A stretch of 35,323 nucleotides of DNA from Salinivirgaceae bacterium (GTDB lineage Bacteria > Bacteroidota > Bacteroidia > Bacteroidales > SZUA-534): the NCBI GenBank assembly GCA_030620515.1, contig JAUXEM010000015.1:1-35323 (forward strand), written 5' to 3'. The notes under the pieces were generated by a model. That model saw nothing but the letters and a program-made list of their open reading frames with translations. It did no database searches and was not told the DNA's origin. Made by a program: the position numbers and the translations under genes. Numbering within the stretch: position 1 is the stretch's first letter; every line of letters starts with the position of its first letter. This document shows positions 28,953 through 35,031 of the stretch, piece after piece.

Positions 28953-28978
28953 TAAAATAATGTTTTTTGAAAAAAAAT

Positions 28979-29122
28979 GCTTGCTGTAAGGTGTTTGTCC
29001 AATATTATTCAACCAAATTAATTAACCCATGAAAAAAAATTACTGTAGCCTTTGATGAAAGATTATAGTAATAAACGTAGATCCGTACAACAAGCATTTC
29101 AATGAACTATAATCTTTATACA
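28979..29122. repeat. Copy 1 of a duplicated ~145-bp sequence
   Basis: Closely similar to 29578-29722. The shared core ATTCAACCAAATTAATTAAC (29008-29027) is identical in both copies. The copies also share CTTGCTG..AAGGTGTTT at the left and AACGTAGATCC..ACAACAAGC at the right. The left end ATGCTTG (28978-28984) and CAAGCAT (29091-29097) are complementary. An inner 9-bp inverted repeat joins AGATTATAG and CTATAATCT. Confidence 0.75.
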
Positions 29123-29219: not shown

Positions 29220-29601
29220 TCATGTTTGTAAAAACACAAGTAAAAGTAGCTTTAGTTTCAAATCAACTAACCCTGTGGGCTTAACTTGATGTATATCCAG
29301 TTTTAATCTCTCCTCAAATCCGTAAGTCTTTTTGTAAACAAACTCTCGTAGGGTATGTGTAATTGTGAATCTCTTTGAGCCATTCCCTCGCCTCCTTGTG
29401 ACGTTAAGAATAAATCCGTAGATGATAACCTGTCCACTTGCGACGTAGTAGTTCATTTTTCATACTACATTCTGTGCAAATGTGTATTTGAAATCGACTT
29501 AAAAATATATTCTTAGTTGGAGTTGTATTTTTATTAAAAGAAAGGATTAATGAATAGTAAAAAGAAAGAAATATAAAGCTTGCTGCAAGGTGTTTATTCA
29601 A
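29220..29601 (-). pseudogene. Possible minus-strand gene remnant, unidentified
   Basis: On the minus strand two overlapping short frames look more protein-like than the surroundings: one ends CTECSMKNELLRRKWTGYHL then RIYS and stops; in another frame the sequence continues RHKEAREWLKEIHNYTYPTR before further stops. Base composition is higher in GC than the neighbouring DNA. This could be a fragment of a transposase or other gene broken by frameshifts, lying between the two copies of the duplicated sequence. I do not recognise the family and the call may be wrong. Confidence 0.3.
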
Positions 29602-29722
29602 TATTATTCAACCAAATTAATTAACCCATGAAAAAAAAATTACTGTAACCTAAAGGATAGGTATAGTAACTAAACGTAGATCCCCACAACAAGCTTTTTC
29701 AAAGAACTATTATCTTTTTGTT
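29578..29722. repeat. Copy 2 of a duplicated ~145-bp sequence
   Basis: Second copy, see 28979-29122. Here the complementary ends are AAGCTTG and CAAGCTT: relative to copy 1 one pair has changed on both sides (T-A to A-T), so pairing is kept. Both copies contain an ATG followed by an A-run (29628 here, 29029 in copy 1) that opens only a very short frame, and on the minus strand a TTG-N21-TACGTTTA arrangement resembling a promoter. Confidence 0.75.
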
Positions 29723-30088: not shown

Positions 30089-31822
30089 ATGAAACAAATT
30101 TTCTATTTAATTATTCTATTATTTTTAATTCAAGCGTTTGGTTATTCTCAAAACGACAGTGGTATAACTAGTAATAGCGTAAAAGCTATTTCTGAGTACA
30201 ATAGAAATGCGATTACTGTACTTATATTAGAAAATACATCGAAATATAATAACGATCTCAAAAAAGCTTCCAATTTTATTAATATTCCTGATAAATTTGA
30301 TGATAATACCCTTAGTATTAGAACCATGAAGGTGTATGATAAGGATGCTGCTGTTATTAAACAAGAATTATTGCATAATAAAATTCCGAATGAGATTCTA
30401 ACGAAATGGTTTTCACGTAAAGAAAATGGTGAGTTTGATATGTCGGTAATTTATGATAGAGGAATGTATAATGCCACCGATGATGAAGTGATAAAAGCAT
30501 CATCAAGTAAAATTGGAATCGCAAAATTAAAAGATGCCGGAGAAGCGCTTATTGATCATAGTTATATATTAGTACTCGATTATTATGGGATACAGTCTAT
30601 GAGTCAAAAATATAATAAGCGAGATGCTGCCAGAAAAATAAAAGCAGAACGTACAAATACTGAATTTAAAAGATCTAAGCGAATAAAAAATGGTTGGGAA
30701 GGACAAGCAAGAGCCTATTTATTTAAACTTAGTTTTACCGATACAATAATAGATGTTTTTTACAATGATTTGTGGATTTATGAAGACGATAAAGAGGATG
30801 TAAGAGAAGCAAAGAAGATTAGATTTAATAAAACAGATTTTCCTATTCAATTTATTATGAATGCTAGTGGTGATGCAGATGGTACACAATACAATGCTGG
30901 ACAAATTCTGGCTCCTGCAAAACAACGAACGAGGGAAGAGCTTTTTCAAAAAATGATTGCCACAAGTATTCAAAGTGTTATTTTTAAAATAGAAAAAGAT
31001 TTAGAAGATTTTAAAATTAAAACACCAGTTTATAAGGCGAAACCTATAAGTGCTAAAATAGGACGAAAAGAAGGATTGAAAACCGACCAGCGATTTTTTG
31101 TGGTAGAAATGAAACAAAAAAGAAGTGGAGATATAGTTGCAAAGAGAAAAGCAGTAGTACGTGCAAAGAAAATTATTGATAATAGAAATGTTGCAACAGG
31201 CAATTCCAATGAGTTTTCAACTTTTTATCAGACCTCTGGGCTGGGTATAGAGCCAGGTATGCTTATGCAGCAGCGAAACGATTTAGGTATTGGATTATCA
31301 GCAGGCTATTCTTTTGGTGGAATGGGAGGCGGCTATGCGAAGCTTGAATTTAATATTGCTCGCTTTGCTGCTAGTATGGTTGATATTGGTATAACACAAT
31401 TAAAATTATTTGGTGCAGCTGCTTTTGATTATCAAGATTATGATATTTCTAATACAAGTTATGATATGAGTTTTACTCGTTGGCAAATTGGTTTATCTAA
31501 AGGTTTTTACATAGCCCGAAACTTTTCAATTGCTCCACTTATTTCTTATGGGCAGGAAATGGCAACACAAGAAGATTTATTAGTAAATTTAGGTCGCGAA
31601 AAAGATGATTATATTAACATAGAATTTATGAATTTTGGAGGATATGCTACAATAAATATAACTCATTTTTTACAACTTATGGGTACTTTTAACTATTATA
31701 CATTAATTGGATCGCCTTACGATAAAGAAAGAGATAGCTTTAATGGATACAGTAAATATACTGACTTTTTTGATGATCGTTATGGAATGTCAATTGATGT
31801 TGGTATACGTTTAGAGTTTTAA
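30089..31822 (+). CDS. Exported protein with C-terminal outer-membrane barrel, cluster gene 1
   Basis: 577 residues of a family I recall as conserved in Bacteroidales but without assigned function. A signal peptide (about 1-20, LIQAFGYSQ) is followed by a roughly 370-residue periplasmic region (VLILENTSKYNNDLKKASNF; the GMYNATDDEVIKA, YILVLDYYGIQSM and DVFYNDLWIYEDD stretches). The last 170 residues alternate hydrophobic and polar residues like a small beta-barrel (IGLSAGYSFGGMGGGYAKLEF, and later strands such as RWQIGLSKGFYIARNFSIAP) and end in RLEF, with the terminal aromatic typical of outer-membrane proteins. It is the first of four co-directional exported-protein genes. A role as the outer-membrane part of an envelope complex is inferred. 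The upstream leader is AT-rich without a clear box. Confidence 0.75.
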   Translation: MKQIFYLIILLFLIQAFGYSQNDSGITSNSVKAISEYNRNAITVLILENTSKYNNDLKKASNFINIPDKFDDNTLSIRTMKVYDKDAAVIKQELLHNKIPNEILTKWFSRKENGEFDMSVIYDRGMYNATDDEVIKASSSKIGIAKLKDAGEALIDHSYILVLDYYGIQSMSQKYNKRDAARKIKAERTNTEFKRSKRIKNGWEGQARAYLFKLSFTDTIIDVFYNDLWIYEDDKEDVREAKKIRFNKTDFPIQFIMNASGDADGTQYNAGQILAPAKQRTREELFQKMIATSIQSVIFKIEKDLEDFKIKTPVYKAKPISAKIGRKEGLKTDQRFFVVEMKQKRSGDIVAKRKAVVRAKKIIDNRNVATGNSNEFSTFYQTSGLGIEPGMLMQQRNDLGIGLSAGYSFGGMGGGYAKLEFNIARFAASMVDIGITQLKLFGAAAFDYQDYDISNTSYDMSFTRWQIGLSKGFYIARNFSIAPLISYGQEMATQEDLLVNLGREKDDYINIEFMNFGGYATINITHFLQLMGTFNYYTLIGSPYDKERDSFNGYSKYTDFFDDRYGMSIDVGIRLEF

Positions 31823-31860
31823 AGATTGAATTAACACATGGTAAATTAAATTATAAAAAA

Positions 31861-32394
31861 ATGAAGAAAATTAAAAACATAACATCTTTATTGGTTGTAG
31901 TAGTGCTTTTTGCTGTTAATTGTTCGGCTCAGAGCAAAAATAAAGTTCGAAAACTTGAATACAACAGTACATATAATTATGAAGTTGCAACCGTAGCTGT
32001 TGGTGTAGATGGTACAAAACTAATTAAAGTTTGGGGCTATGGTAAAAAAGTTGAAGATGCTATTCGCAAAGCTAAACAAGATGCCGTTGCTTGTGCTATA
32101 TCAAGAGGTTTTCCAGCTGGTGCAGGTGGACGTGCAGCTGCAACTCCTGCTATAGTAACTGATAGCGATGTTTTTACAAAAAACGAAGCCTATTTTACTA
32201 CATTTTTTGAACCAGGAGGTAAGTATCTGCAATATGTGAATTTAAGTACCGATGCACCGCCATCAGGCGCCGATAGGGTAAAAGTAAATAAAAAAACATA
32301 TAAGGTTGGTGTAACCATATCCATTGCCTTCAACGAATTAAGAAAAGAAATGGAGAAAGAAGGTATAGCCCGTAGTTTAGATTCCGGATTTTAA
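31861..32394 (+). CDS. Exported LPP20/FlgT-like protein, cluster gene 2
   Basis: 177 residues: signal peptide (about 1-23, FAVNCSAQ; the Cys may be a lipid site but the following context is weak), then a single domain with VATVAVGVDGTKLIKVWGYG followed by KKVEDAIRKAKQDAVACAIS and, further on, GGKYLQYVNLS and KVNKKTYKVGVTISIAFNEL. The pattern of a strand, a helix rich in Ala with 'A...A..DA', and later strands recalls the LPP20/FlgT-N fold found in proteins that work with CsgG-like outer-membrane channels. That resemblance is by eye only. It starts 38 bases after gene 1, suggesting one transcript. Confidence 0.72.
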   Translation: MKKIKNITSLLVVVVLFAVNCSAQSKNKVRKLEYNSTYNYEVATVAVGVDGTKLIKVWGYGKKVEDAIRKAKQDAVACAISRGFPAGAGGRAAATPAIVTDSDVFTKNEAYFTTFFEPGGKYLQYVNLSTDAPPSGADRVKVNKKTYKVGVTISIAFNELRKEMEKEGIARSLDSGF

Positions 32395-32506
32395 AAAAAA
32401 TAGTGTGCAAAAATAAATAAAATTTGTAGCTGTAAGTGACAATATTAATCTAATTAATACTATTAATCTCGCTTAAAGGGCTACAATTTTTAATAAATTT
32501 ATATTT
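32395..32506. other. Structured 112-base spacer inside the envelope cluster
   Basis: AAAATTTGTAGC (32419-32430) and GCTACAATTTT (32480-32490) are complementary apart from one bulged base and enclose about 50 bases containing two TATTAATCT copies (32443-32451 and 32461-32469). No T-run, no start codon and no promoter box is seen. It could be an RNA structure setting the expression of genes 3 and 4 relative to 1 and 2. Confidence 0.45.
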
Positions 32507-33472
32507 ATGAAAAAAATTTTAACAATTTTACTTGTAGTTGCTGCCATAGCTAATAGCTATGGTCAAGCAAAGAAACCTACCATTATGGTAGTACCCAGCG
32601 ACAGACTGTGTATTAGCAAAAATTTTAGTATGACTTTCGATAATCAGGGAACTGAGATTGTTTTACCCGATTACAAAAAAGCTTTGCAAACCGATGGCGA
32701 TTTAAGACTTATTATTTCAAAGATGAGTGGTATTATGGCCGACCGTGGTTTTCCATTGAAAGATTTGGAGCAAGAACTCAAAAATTTAGAACAACAAGCT
32801 GCCGAAACTAGTATGATGATGAGTAAAGGCGGTAGTGAGCTGGCCGAATCGCCAATTGATATGCTAAAGCGTACTGCTAAGGCCGATATTATTATGGACT
32901 TAGACTTTGAGATAAAGCAGCAAGGACCACGTAAATATATTGTATTTACTTTAAATGGTTTAGATGCCTATACCAGTAAAAATGTTGCAAGTGCAGCCGG
33001 TACTGGTGCACCTAGTTCTGCAGCAGCACCCGAATTGTTACTTGAAGAAGCTGTATTAAGCTATATGGATGAGTTTAACGGTCGTTTAATGACTCATTTT
33101 GAAGATATGTTTGCCAAAGGACGCGAGGTTAAAGTTATGGTTAAAGTATGGGACTCGGCTGAATATGACCTTGAAGATGAATTTGACCTTAATGGCGAAA
33201 CCGATGAGTTTGGTATTTTTATAGAAGATTGGATGGCTGATAATACTGTTGAAGGTCGTTTTAATTTATCGGATGGTACAAGTAACTTTCAAAAATACGA
33301 GCAAGTACGTATTCCTATGTTTTATGAACGTAATGGTAAGCAAAGAGCTATGGATACACGCCGTTTTGTAAATAACTTACGTAAATATTTAGCCAAGGAA
33401 CCATTTATGATGGAGTGTAAAGTTTATATGCGTGGTTTAGGAGAGGCTCATTTAATTATAGGTGAAAAATAA
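32507..33472 (+). CDS. DUF6175 family exported protein, cluster gene 3
   Basis: 321 residues with signal peptide (about 1-19, IANSYGQ). The mature start KKPTIMVVPSDRLC, the ADRGFPLKDLEQELKNL segment, and ADIIMDLDFEIKQQGPRKYI match what I recall of the DUF6175 family of Bacteroidota. The alternation of a PxIMVxPS strand with an amphipathic helix resembles the nucleotide-free fold of CsgG/LpoB-type periplasmic proteins, but this is inference. The C-terminal half (VKVMVKVWDSAEYDLEDEF ... FMMECKVYMRGLGEAHLIIG) may be a second domain. The next gene begins 5 bases after its stop, so they are coupled. Confidence 0.78.
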   Translation: MKKILTILLVVAAIANSYGQAKKPTIMVVPSDRLCISKNFSMTFDNQGTEIVLPDYKKALQTDGDLRLIISKMSGIMADRGFPLKDLEQELKNLEQQAAETSMMMSKGGSELAESPIDMLKRTAKADIIMDLDFEIKQQGPRKYIVFTLNGLDAYTSKNVASAAGTGAPSSAAAPELLLEEAVLSYMDEFNGRLMTHFEDMFAKGREVKVMVKVWDSAEYDLEDEFDLNGETDEFGIFIEDWMADNTVEGRFNLSDGTSNFQKYEQVRIPMFYERNGKQRAMDTRRFVNNLRKYLAKEPFMMECKVYMRGLGEAHLIIGEK

Positions 33473-33477
33473 GAATT

Positions 33478-35031
33478 ATGAAAAGACTATTAGTTTTTCT
33501 AACAGTAATTGCCTTTGGTTTTTCGGGAACCCTTTTTGCCCAAAATAGTGAAGGTAAAGCCGACGATGCGGCACGAATTTCTATTACTCCACAAGTTACG
33601 GCTCAGGAGATACCTCAAGGAGCAAAGAATATGCTTATGAATAAAATGAAACAGATTTGCACTAAAAATGGTTTGGCCGGCGACGGAAATAATCCTTTCT
33701 TTATTATGGATGCTACTGTCGATATTTTATCGAAAGAGCTAACTCCTACGGCTCCGCCAATGCATGCTTTATACTTATCGGTTAACTTTTTTATTAAAGA
33801 TGCTAAAAGTGGTGCTATATATAGTGAGTCGAGTATTGAAATAAAAGGAGTTGGAAAAAACGAAACCAAAGCATACTCACAAGCTCTGAAAAATATAAAT
33901 ACTAGTAAAGGGCAATTTAAAGCCATGGTTGAAAAAGGTAAAGTTAAAATCATTGAATTTTATAATTCAGAGTGCGATTTCATTATCTCAAAAGCTACAG
34001 CATTGCATAAACAAGGAAACAATGCAGATGCTATTAAAGTATTAGAATCGGTGCCTTCAGTTAGTAAAGAATGTTTTGCAAAGTGTATGGAGCTTTTATC
34101 GGAAATAGAACCACCTGTTGAACCTGTTGCCACAACAACAGCAGCTTCATCTGGTAGTACTCCAACAAATGCAATAAGTGGCGAAATGGAAATTGACACC
34201 GATATTTTCTTAGTTTACTTGGGTAGCAAAACCCTTGGTGATAAAATGCTACTTAATTTTGAGTTTGAAAATAGAGGAGATAAAGATTATGAACTTGACG
34301 ATTATGTATTTGATACACGCATTGTTGACCAAAACGGAGCTGCTCACAAAACACTTTCTCAAAGCGTTGGTGAAAATGTTGGAGCAAAAGCACGCTTCAC
34401 TATTATACCAGGTGTTCCGGTGAAATCGGCTTTTGAGTTTCCTGTAGTAGATGCTGTTACTATGTTTGAATACAAGTATAAAGACCGCATTTTTAGGTTA
34501 AAAGATGTTCAACTTACCGGTAGTACTCAAAAAAGTAATGGTAATTCAACATCAAATGCAAGTGCATCCGTTAGCAATTCTGGTAGTTATTCTAATCTTG
34601 TGGGTTACGATGGAGCAAAAGTGGTTTTTAATAAAACTACAAAATATGGAAATTTAAGACTACCCATGAATGAGTTTGGAGAATTCGGTGGTGATAGATC
34701 TTTTAAAGGGAAAATAGTTAGATACCAGTTTTCGACATCTGCTGATAATAACCCTGAGTATATTTTAATGATGGCAAAAAAAGCACTGGCGAATAAAGGC
34801 TATGAAATTTTAGTCTCGCAAGAGAGTCTGGATCAGTTTTTTGAGGAGAAGTATTTTAAAAGACTTGATAATCATAGGTTTGGAAGTAAATGGGGATTTT
34901 TTCAAAATTCTAATTGTACATATCTAATAGCTAAAACAAGTAGTGGCAATAAGGATATTTATGTATCGATTTATATATGGGCAGAAAAGGATTATACCGG
35001 TATTAATCAAGATGTGGTTGAAGTAGAATAA
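33478..35031 (+). CDS. Exported multidomain protein with DUF4892-like C-terminus, cluster gene 4
   Basis: 517 residues in at least three parts after the signal peptide (about 1-21, GTLFAQ). Residues 30-205: a FlgT/CsgG-accessory-like domain (ARISITPQVTAQEIPQGAKN; APPMHALYLSVNFFIKD; KGVGKNETKAYSQALKNIN) ending in a short helical repeat (HKQGNNADAIKVLESVP). Residues 235-345: a beta-sandwich (GDKMLLNFEFENRGDKDYELDDYVF) of DUF4352-like look. Residues 375-517: a domain resembling DUF4892 (SFKGKIVRYQFS ... MMAKKALANKGYEILVSQ ... DIYVSIYIWAEKDYTGINQDV then VEVE), which in other proteins precedes OmpA-type domains. Serine/threonine-rich linkers separate the parts. Last gene of the cluster; a terminator follows at 35052-35090. 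Confidence 0.72.
   Translation: MKRLLVFLTVIAFGFSGTLFAQNSEGKADDAARISITPQVTAQEIPQGAKNMLMNKMKQICTKNGLAGDGNNPFFIMDATVDILSKELTPTAPPMHALYLSVNFFIKDAKSGAIYSESSIEIKGVGKNETKAYSQALKNINTSKGQFKAMVEKGKVKIIEFYNSECDFIISKATALHKQGNNADAIKVLESVPSVSKECFAKCMELLSEIEPPVEPVATTTAASSGSTPTNAISGEMEIDTDIFLVYLGSKTLGDKMLLNFEFENRGDKDYELDDYVFDTRIVDQNGAAHKTLSQSVGENVGAKARFTIIPGVPVKSAFEFPVVDAVTMFEYKYKDRIFRLKDVQLTGSTQKSNGNSTSNASASVSNSGSYSNLVGYDGAKVVFNKTTKYGNLRLPMNEFGEFGGDRSFKGKIVRYQFSTSADNNPEYILMMAKKALANKGYEILVSQESLDQFFEEKYFKRLDNHRFGSKWGFFQNSNCTYLIAKTSSGNKDIYVSIYIWAEKDYTGINQDVVEVE

Follow-up and report, generated by a model that had tools for sequence, protein, structure and literature searches.

In a contig of 35,323 nucleotides from a Salinivirgaceae bacterium (hereafter the window, which is one entire contig, C147, of an assembly of 3.93 Mb in 319 contigs), four adjacent genes (30089 to 35031) form a strongly conserved cassette that is found in many uncultured Bacteroidota. 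Since two of its products are predicted to be shaped like proteins of flagellar and curli rings, this row of genes probably encodes an undescribed envelope machine or collar; in our opinion, the chances are about even that it specifies a non-flagellar complex anchored in the outer membrane, probably ring-forming and built from FlgT/CsgG/LPP20 parts.

Gene 1 (30089..31822, 577 amino acids) encodes a signal peptide, a predicted FlgT-like periplasmic region (aa 37-398) and a predicted OmpA-type barrel (aa 399-577) with a C-terminal F; gene 2 (31861..32394, 177 aa) encodes a small exported protein, which has a lipobox in some lineages and is fused to DUF6175 in distant relatives; gene 3 (32507..33472, 321 aa) encodes a DUF6175 protein; and gene 4 (33478..35031, 517 aa) encodes a conserved N-domain followed by a lineage-variable C-terminal part. 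All four open reading frames (ORFs) lie on the plus strand, with intergenic gaps of 38, 112 and 5 nt. The first-pass annotation, made from the sequence alone, had assigned signal peptides to all four products, and inspection by eye is in agreement with this: the N-termini are K/R-rich and hydrophobic and end near Q, as is typical for exported Bacteroidota proteins.

Conservation and linkage of the four genes

The distribution of the four families was analyzed by profile searches in a phylum-wide sample of 395 Bacteroidota genomes. DUF6175 (gene 3) was retrieved in 19 of them (about 5% of those sampled), and the profiles of genes 1, 2 and 4 matched 17, 10 and 9 genomes, respectively. All ten genomes with gene 2, all nine with gene 4 and 16 of the 17 with gene 1 fall within the 19 harboring gene 3, the sole exception being G280; the corresponding hypergeometric p values, in which the relatedness of the genomes is not corrected for, are 4e-15 (gene 2), 2e-13 (gene 4) and 1e-24 (gene 1). 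Besides the host, eight sampled genomes carry the cassette genes together and mostly in the same order. A second set, consisting of 80 named genome loci fetched by similarity to gene 3 and ranging from Salinivirgaceae to Flavobacteriales, revealed that the order of genes 1 to 4 is almost invariant wherever the contig extends far enough, and that the gaps between the cassette genes are mostly shorter than 130 nt. The closest named relatives of the four genes belong mostly to Salinivirgaceae and to other metagenome-assembled genomes of Bacteroidales. The idea of the first-pass annotation that homologues of these genes lie together in Bacteroidales is borne out, and extends across Bacteroidota: the four families co-occur and stay linked.

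Some loci depart from this scheme. The cassette of one genome (G351, locus L023, 8917-14712) is rearranged: genes 3, 4, 1 and 2 are interspersed with a gene for a WG-repeat protein and with a separate gene for a small outer-membrane barrel. This barrel gene stands between genes 1 and 2 and is the equivalent of the gene 1 barrel by position only, since the profile of the latter does not match it at E<=0.01. In three other loci (L087 6772-10487, L096 and L099), two further genes for exported proteins, of about 360 and 880 aa and with no Pfam match, come after the cassette; thus, the full system may number eight genes in some Bacteroidales.

Predicted folds of genes 1 and 3

In the Pfam scan of the four products, gene 3 alone received a family name, and the NCBIfam scan named none of them; searches of PDB sequences with the family profiles returned chance matches only. 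The assignment of gene 3 to DUF6175 (PF19672), already made in the first-pass annotation, is supported by a full-length match (E=2.7e-110, 368 bits versus a cut-off of 23, profile positions 1-293 of 293). The family name gives no function, and DUF6175 is mentioned in no paper found in an open literature search. The AlphaFold (AF2) model of gene 3, obtained with 51 sequences and having a pLDDT of 84.7, comprises a strand, helices, three strands and a helix, followed by a second domain. As modeled, residues 22-204 (32570..33118, plus strand) have a CsgG-type alpha/beta fold, whose top structural matches in Foldseek and VIA are CsgG, PelC, FlgT, TolB, LptE and LpoB. In VIA, residues 22-199 matched CsgG with a Z of 9.7 and a root-mean-square deviation (rmsd) of 3.5 over 125 residues (Foldseek probability 1.00), and gene 3 matched PelC with a Z of 9.3 (rmsd 2.5 over 113 residues) and FlgT with a Z of 8.5. 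The CsgG Pfam family (PF03783) has no match in genes 1-4 of the window, a lipobox-like motif is absent from all 79 of the gene 3 homologues inspected, and the strand list of the gene 3 model reveals no long membrane-spanning hairpins of the CsgG type.

The AF2 model of gene 1 (49 sequences, pLDDT 89.3) combines an 8-strand barrel with a soluble part of the alpha/beta type and a small beta domain. The barrel region (aa 399-577; 31283..31819, plus strand) contains eight antiparallel strands over residues 401-576 and, according to VIA-align, resembles the barrels of OprF (Z 16.3) and OmpA (Z 15.4); the OMP_b-brl Pfam family matches 7 of 49 homologues, and 54 of 74 end in F. The terminal barrel with a final aromatic residue, proposed from the sequence alone, is therefore also predicted by the model. 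The preceding region (aa 37-398; 30197..31282, plus strand) is predicted by Foldseek and VIA to resemble the middle and C domains of FlgT. The Foldseek search with gene 1 ranked FlgT (3w1e) fourth (E=5.7e-5, probability 1.00), the rest of the top list being outer-membrane barrels. In VIA-align, residues 37-399 matched FlgT over 225 residues with a Z of 8.9, barely above the background quoted for the tool, and with an rmsd of 11.3, which would be expected if the domains hinge differently; the Z to 8z5n, a cryo-EM LPHT ring, was 8.7. The FlgT Pfam family matches neither gene 1 (E<=5) nor any of 49 homologues (E<=0.05). Given the Foldseek and VIA scores and the high rmsd, we regard the similarity between gene 1 and FlgT as a fold-level lead of moderate strength.

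Proteins of the gene 1 family fall into two size classes, one of about 540-600 aa, mostly F-ending and with the barrel, and one of about 440 aa without it. The host itself harbors a second, barrel-less gene 1 paralogue, which lies alone beside unrelated genes on contig C228 (L155 3047-4336). In two distant cassettes (G318 and G154), the place of gene 1 is taken by an LpoB/CsgG protein, one of them scoring above the curated cut-offs of both LpoB and CsgG and the other above that of CsgG only.

Taken with the linkage of the genes, these predictions bear on the first-pass proposal of an envelope system. The proposal stands insofar as the genes are linked and two products are predicted to share folds with envelope-complex proteins, gene 1 with FlgT and gene 3 with CsgG, PelC, FlgT and LpoB; neither of the two outcomes named beforehand as refuting it, a failure of the genes to co-occur and a lack of any shared fold, was observed. 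It had placed such resemblances in genes 2 and 4, whereas the predicted FlgT-like part belongs to gene 1 and the CsgG-like part to gene 3.

Genes 2 and 4, LPP20-type neighbors and an upstream element

When compared with each other over their full length, the alignments of the four families share the signal peptide only, and mature domains were therefore used in hhalign. The LPP20/FlgT resemblance that had been attributed to genes 2 and 4 was not recovered: neither has a Pfam match, and hhalign against LPP20 gave 1.7% for gene 2 and 0.4% for the gene 4 N-domain. Likewise, the DUF4892-like domain suggested for gene 4 was not detected in the Pfam scans. The conserved N-domain of gene 4 (aa 25-165; 33550..33972, plus strand) has a homologue in distant relatives, where it forms the C-terminal domain of LPP20 proteins; the C-terminal region (aa 206-517; 34093..35028, plus strand) is lineage-variable, and its stretch conserved in Salinivirgaceae may be the beta-sandwich proposed in the first-pass annotation.

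LPP20 relatives do occur beside the cassette. Two extra genes (genes 5 and 6), present at 43 and 32 of the 80 loci, flank it, mostly on its immediate downstream side; LPP20 Pfam matches were obtained for 4 of the 28 and 12 of the 25 members, and hhalign gave 97 and 98%. In Salinivirgaceae, these two genes are not at the cassette position and neither is within the window. A search of the host genome retrieved only a 130-aa end of gene 5, at the start of contig C218, which does not adjoin the window, and no match to gene 6; C218 opens with the 3' end of this LPP20-type gene (L190 2-394), cut by the assembly break. On another host contig (C230, L115 1740-4467), a gene for a CsgG/LpoB-TPR lipoprotein overlaps that of an LPP20 protein, a second CsgG/LPP20 pair in the genome; the overall architecture of this LPP20 protein is like that of the LPP20 proteins beside the fusion of genes 2 and 3 in distant relatives.

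This fusion was found in a distant family of the phylum (f30), in which a single ORF joins the gene 2 domain to DUF6175 and the next gene starts with LPP20 and ends with the gene 4 N-domain. The hhalign values of these mature domains were 96.5% for gene 2, 93.8% for gene 3 and 96.0% for the gene 4 N-domain, unrelated pairs reaching 5% at most. An enlarged profile of gene 2 gave 2.3% against LPP20 and 7.4% against LPP20 combined with genes 5 and 6; its score against LPP20 was 23.7 and the shuffled maximum 12.2, yet another cassette profile, that of the gene 4 N-domain, scored 24.0. FlgP, Lpp20 and Vibrio FlgT have a common SHS2-like fold, and in this family ring formation goes with an insertion after a helix (PMC12222027). 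If gene 2 were SHS2-like, which is hypothetical, the fusion of genes 2 and 3 would match the domain order of FlgT.

Two copies, 86% identical, of an element of about 143 nt (28975..29117 and 29575..29717, both on the plus strand) lie upstream of the cassette and are the only ones in the whole assembly. Its 25-nt core recurs without any change in 14 other loci, almost all of which bear the label Salinivirgaceae, and its distance to gene 1, which lies downstream, is nearly always about 400-500 nt; the exceptions are L045 (220 nt, counted to the first start codon of gene 1) and L034, which has no gene 1 match and in which the element is upstream of gene 2. The element is closed by a stem of 14 bp and contains a candidate pseudoknot helix of 9 bp, with pairing in 91.5% of cells. 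Seven of its 23 pairs are changed on both sides, exceeding all 500 shuffles; this covariation represents a support rather than a proof, since the element sequences are related to each other. A nearly invariant unpaired stretch resembles a Bacteroidota translation start, and the reading frame following the ATGAAAAAAA of the element is not conserved. No Rfam family matches the element. In loci of other families, a covariance model did not yield a clear match (best E 0.05), and a pattern search with the core found no match in viral contigs. We consider it a candidate conserved structured non-coding RNA of Salinivirgaceae, linked to the cassette, which it may regulate; alternatively, it may act elsewhere.

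On the 5' side of the cassette, a MoxR/DUF58/BatA/BatD operon is followed by 1.5 kb without a long ORF; on the 3' side, a convergent ORF that leaves the contig ends 58 nt beyond gene 4. Weak Pfam and NCBIfam matches of window genes (Cas4, FliH, T9SS sortase and others), all with E >= 0.018 and below the cut-off, were rejected as noise.

Interpretation of the cassette

A non-flagellar outer-membrane complex appears to be the best explanation of the cassette, since ring folds are repeatedly joined with a barrel in it. The synteny and short gaps in the 80 loci, the co-occurrence of the families, the fusions, the flanking LPP20 relatives, the LpoB/CsgG proteins in the place of gene 1 in G318 and G154, the separate barrel gene of G351 and the predicted structures of genes 1 and 3 are all in agreement with this idea, as is the finding that FlgI and FlgH have no match in the host genome, although E. 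coli and the other controls did match. According to this idea, the complex would be located on the inner side of the outer membrane, with gene 1 as its anchor, the OmpA-type barrel being inserted in the membrane and the FlgT-like part reaching into the periplasm. Gene 2 would assemble with it, as would gene 3, a putative subunit of CsgG/PelC/FlgT fold that has no lipid anchor, and the assembly would most likely be a ring or collar comparable to PelC or the Vibrio H ring. Gene 4 might dock via its conserved N-domain and display a lineage-specific C-terminal module, and in other Bacteroidales two LPP20 proteins would join. Such a complex might serve to reinforce or gate the outer membrane where something passes through it.

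Several points weigh against this interpretation. Folds have been assigned to genes 1 and 3 and none to genes 2 and 4, and the predicted structures are those of genes 1 and 3 singly, not of a complex. Moreover, gene 1 resembles FlgT by fold only, with no Pfam match and with the high rmsd and near-background Z given above, and the CsgG/FlgT fold also occurs in LpoB, TolB and LptE, which form no rings. The cassette has no linked cargo, enzyme or partner in the inner membrane. Lastly, with a host assembly that is 96.5% complete, the absence of flagellar genes is probable but not certain.

Some of these points would favor a different possibility, that is, an envelope-maintenance module in which adaptors of the FlgT/LpoB/TolB/LptE type tie the outer membrane to peptidoglycan or lipid transport without forming a ring. 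LpoB, TolB and LptE use the same fold, gene 1 is built like an outer-membrane-anchored adaptor and no cargo is linked; however, the Pfam scan revealed no peptidoglycan-binding domain in the four products, and the presence of the system in 19 of 395 genomes speaks against a housekeeping role. On balance, we consider this explanation unlikely, even though it is the strongest of the alternatives.

Somewhat less probable still is a secretion pore or a surface-fibre assembly similar to curli, as suggested in the first-pass annotation, in which gene 3 would form a channel of the CsgG type in the outer membrane, with a further product being exported or guiding export. It is true that CsgG is the top structural match of gene 3, that LpoB/CsgG proteins hold the position of gene 1 in related cassettes, and that the C-terminal region of gene 4 is variable. 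Nevertheless, gene 3 has neither a lipobox nor visible membrane hairpins, which makes curli-type secretion less likely, and PelC and FlgT match it about as well as CsgG. In addition, no amyloid or CsgE/F-like gene, nor any other curli gene, was recognised in the cassette by the Pfam scans of the four products, which included no dedicated search for curli partners, and the cassette contains no recognised substrate, inner-membrane part or energiser. The comparison with PelC, a polysaccharide export ring whose structure has been solved as a dodecamer, is similarly partial, in that the fold is shared but gene 3 carries an additional domain at its C-terminus and lacks a lipobox, and exopolysaccharide genes are missing from the cassette.

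The non-flagellar complex that we favor shares with the Vibrio H ring the predicted FlgT-like middle and C domains of gene 1, the CsgG/FlgT fold of gene 3, the LPP20 relatives adjoining the cassette in other Bacteroidales and N-termini of exported proteins throughout; it differs from it in the added OmpA-type barrel, in the lack of a sequence-family match to FlgT and in a host without a FlgI/FlgH match. We know of no counterpart of DUF6175 or of gene 4 in that ring. The similarity to the LPP20/FlgP lipoproteins concerns the two genes flanking the cassette in many Bacteroidales, and not the window, where genes 2 and 4 miss the LPP20 profiles. In Vibrio, FlgT, FlgO and FlgP build or support the H ring, which is associated with the outer membrane (PMC6504787), and the FlgT-like fold together with neighboring LPP20 (FlgP-type) genes recalls this set; yet a relic of flagellar H-ring genes kept for another purpose is very improbable, as FlgI and FlgH are unmatched, the similarity is by fold only, the sequence families being neither FlgT nor FlgP, and neither the barrel nor DUF6175 is a known flagellar part.

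We can further speculate, more tentatively than for the complex as such, that the cassette represents an undescribed non-flagellar outer-membrane nanomachine of Bacteroidota, combining parts of the H ring and of the curli pore with its own barrel anchor, a lineage-specific gene 4 module and, in Salinivirgaceae, a structured RNA. DUF6175, a family without a described function, gains a predicted fold and a gene context within a recurring envelope cassette of four to six genes. Judging from the fusions of genes 2 and 3 and of LPP20 with gene 4, and from the LPP20 genes that flank the cassette, domains of FlgT, CsgG, PelC and LPP20 may be a common kit of parts for outer-membrane assemblies beyond flagella and curli, which makes it possible to test from the non-flagellar side how the flagellar H ring and basal disk arose.

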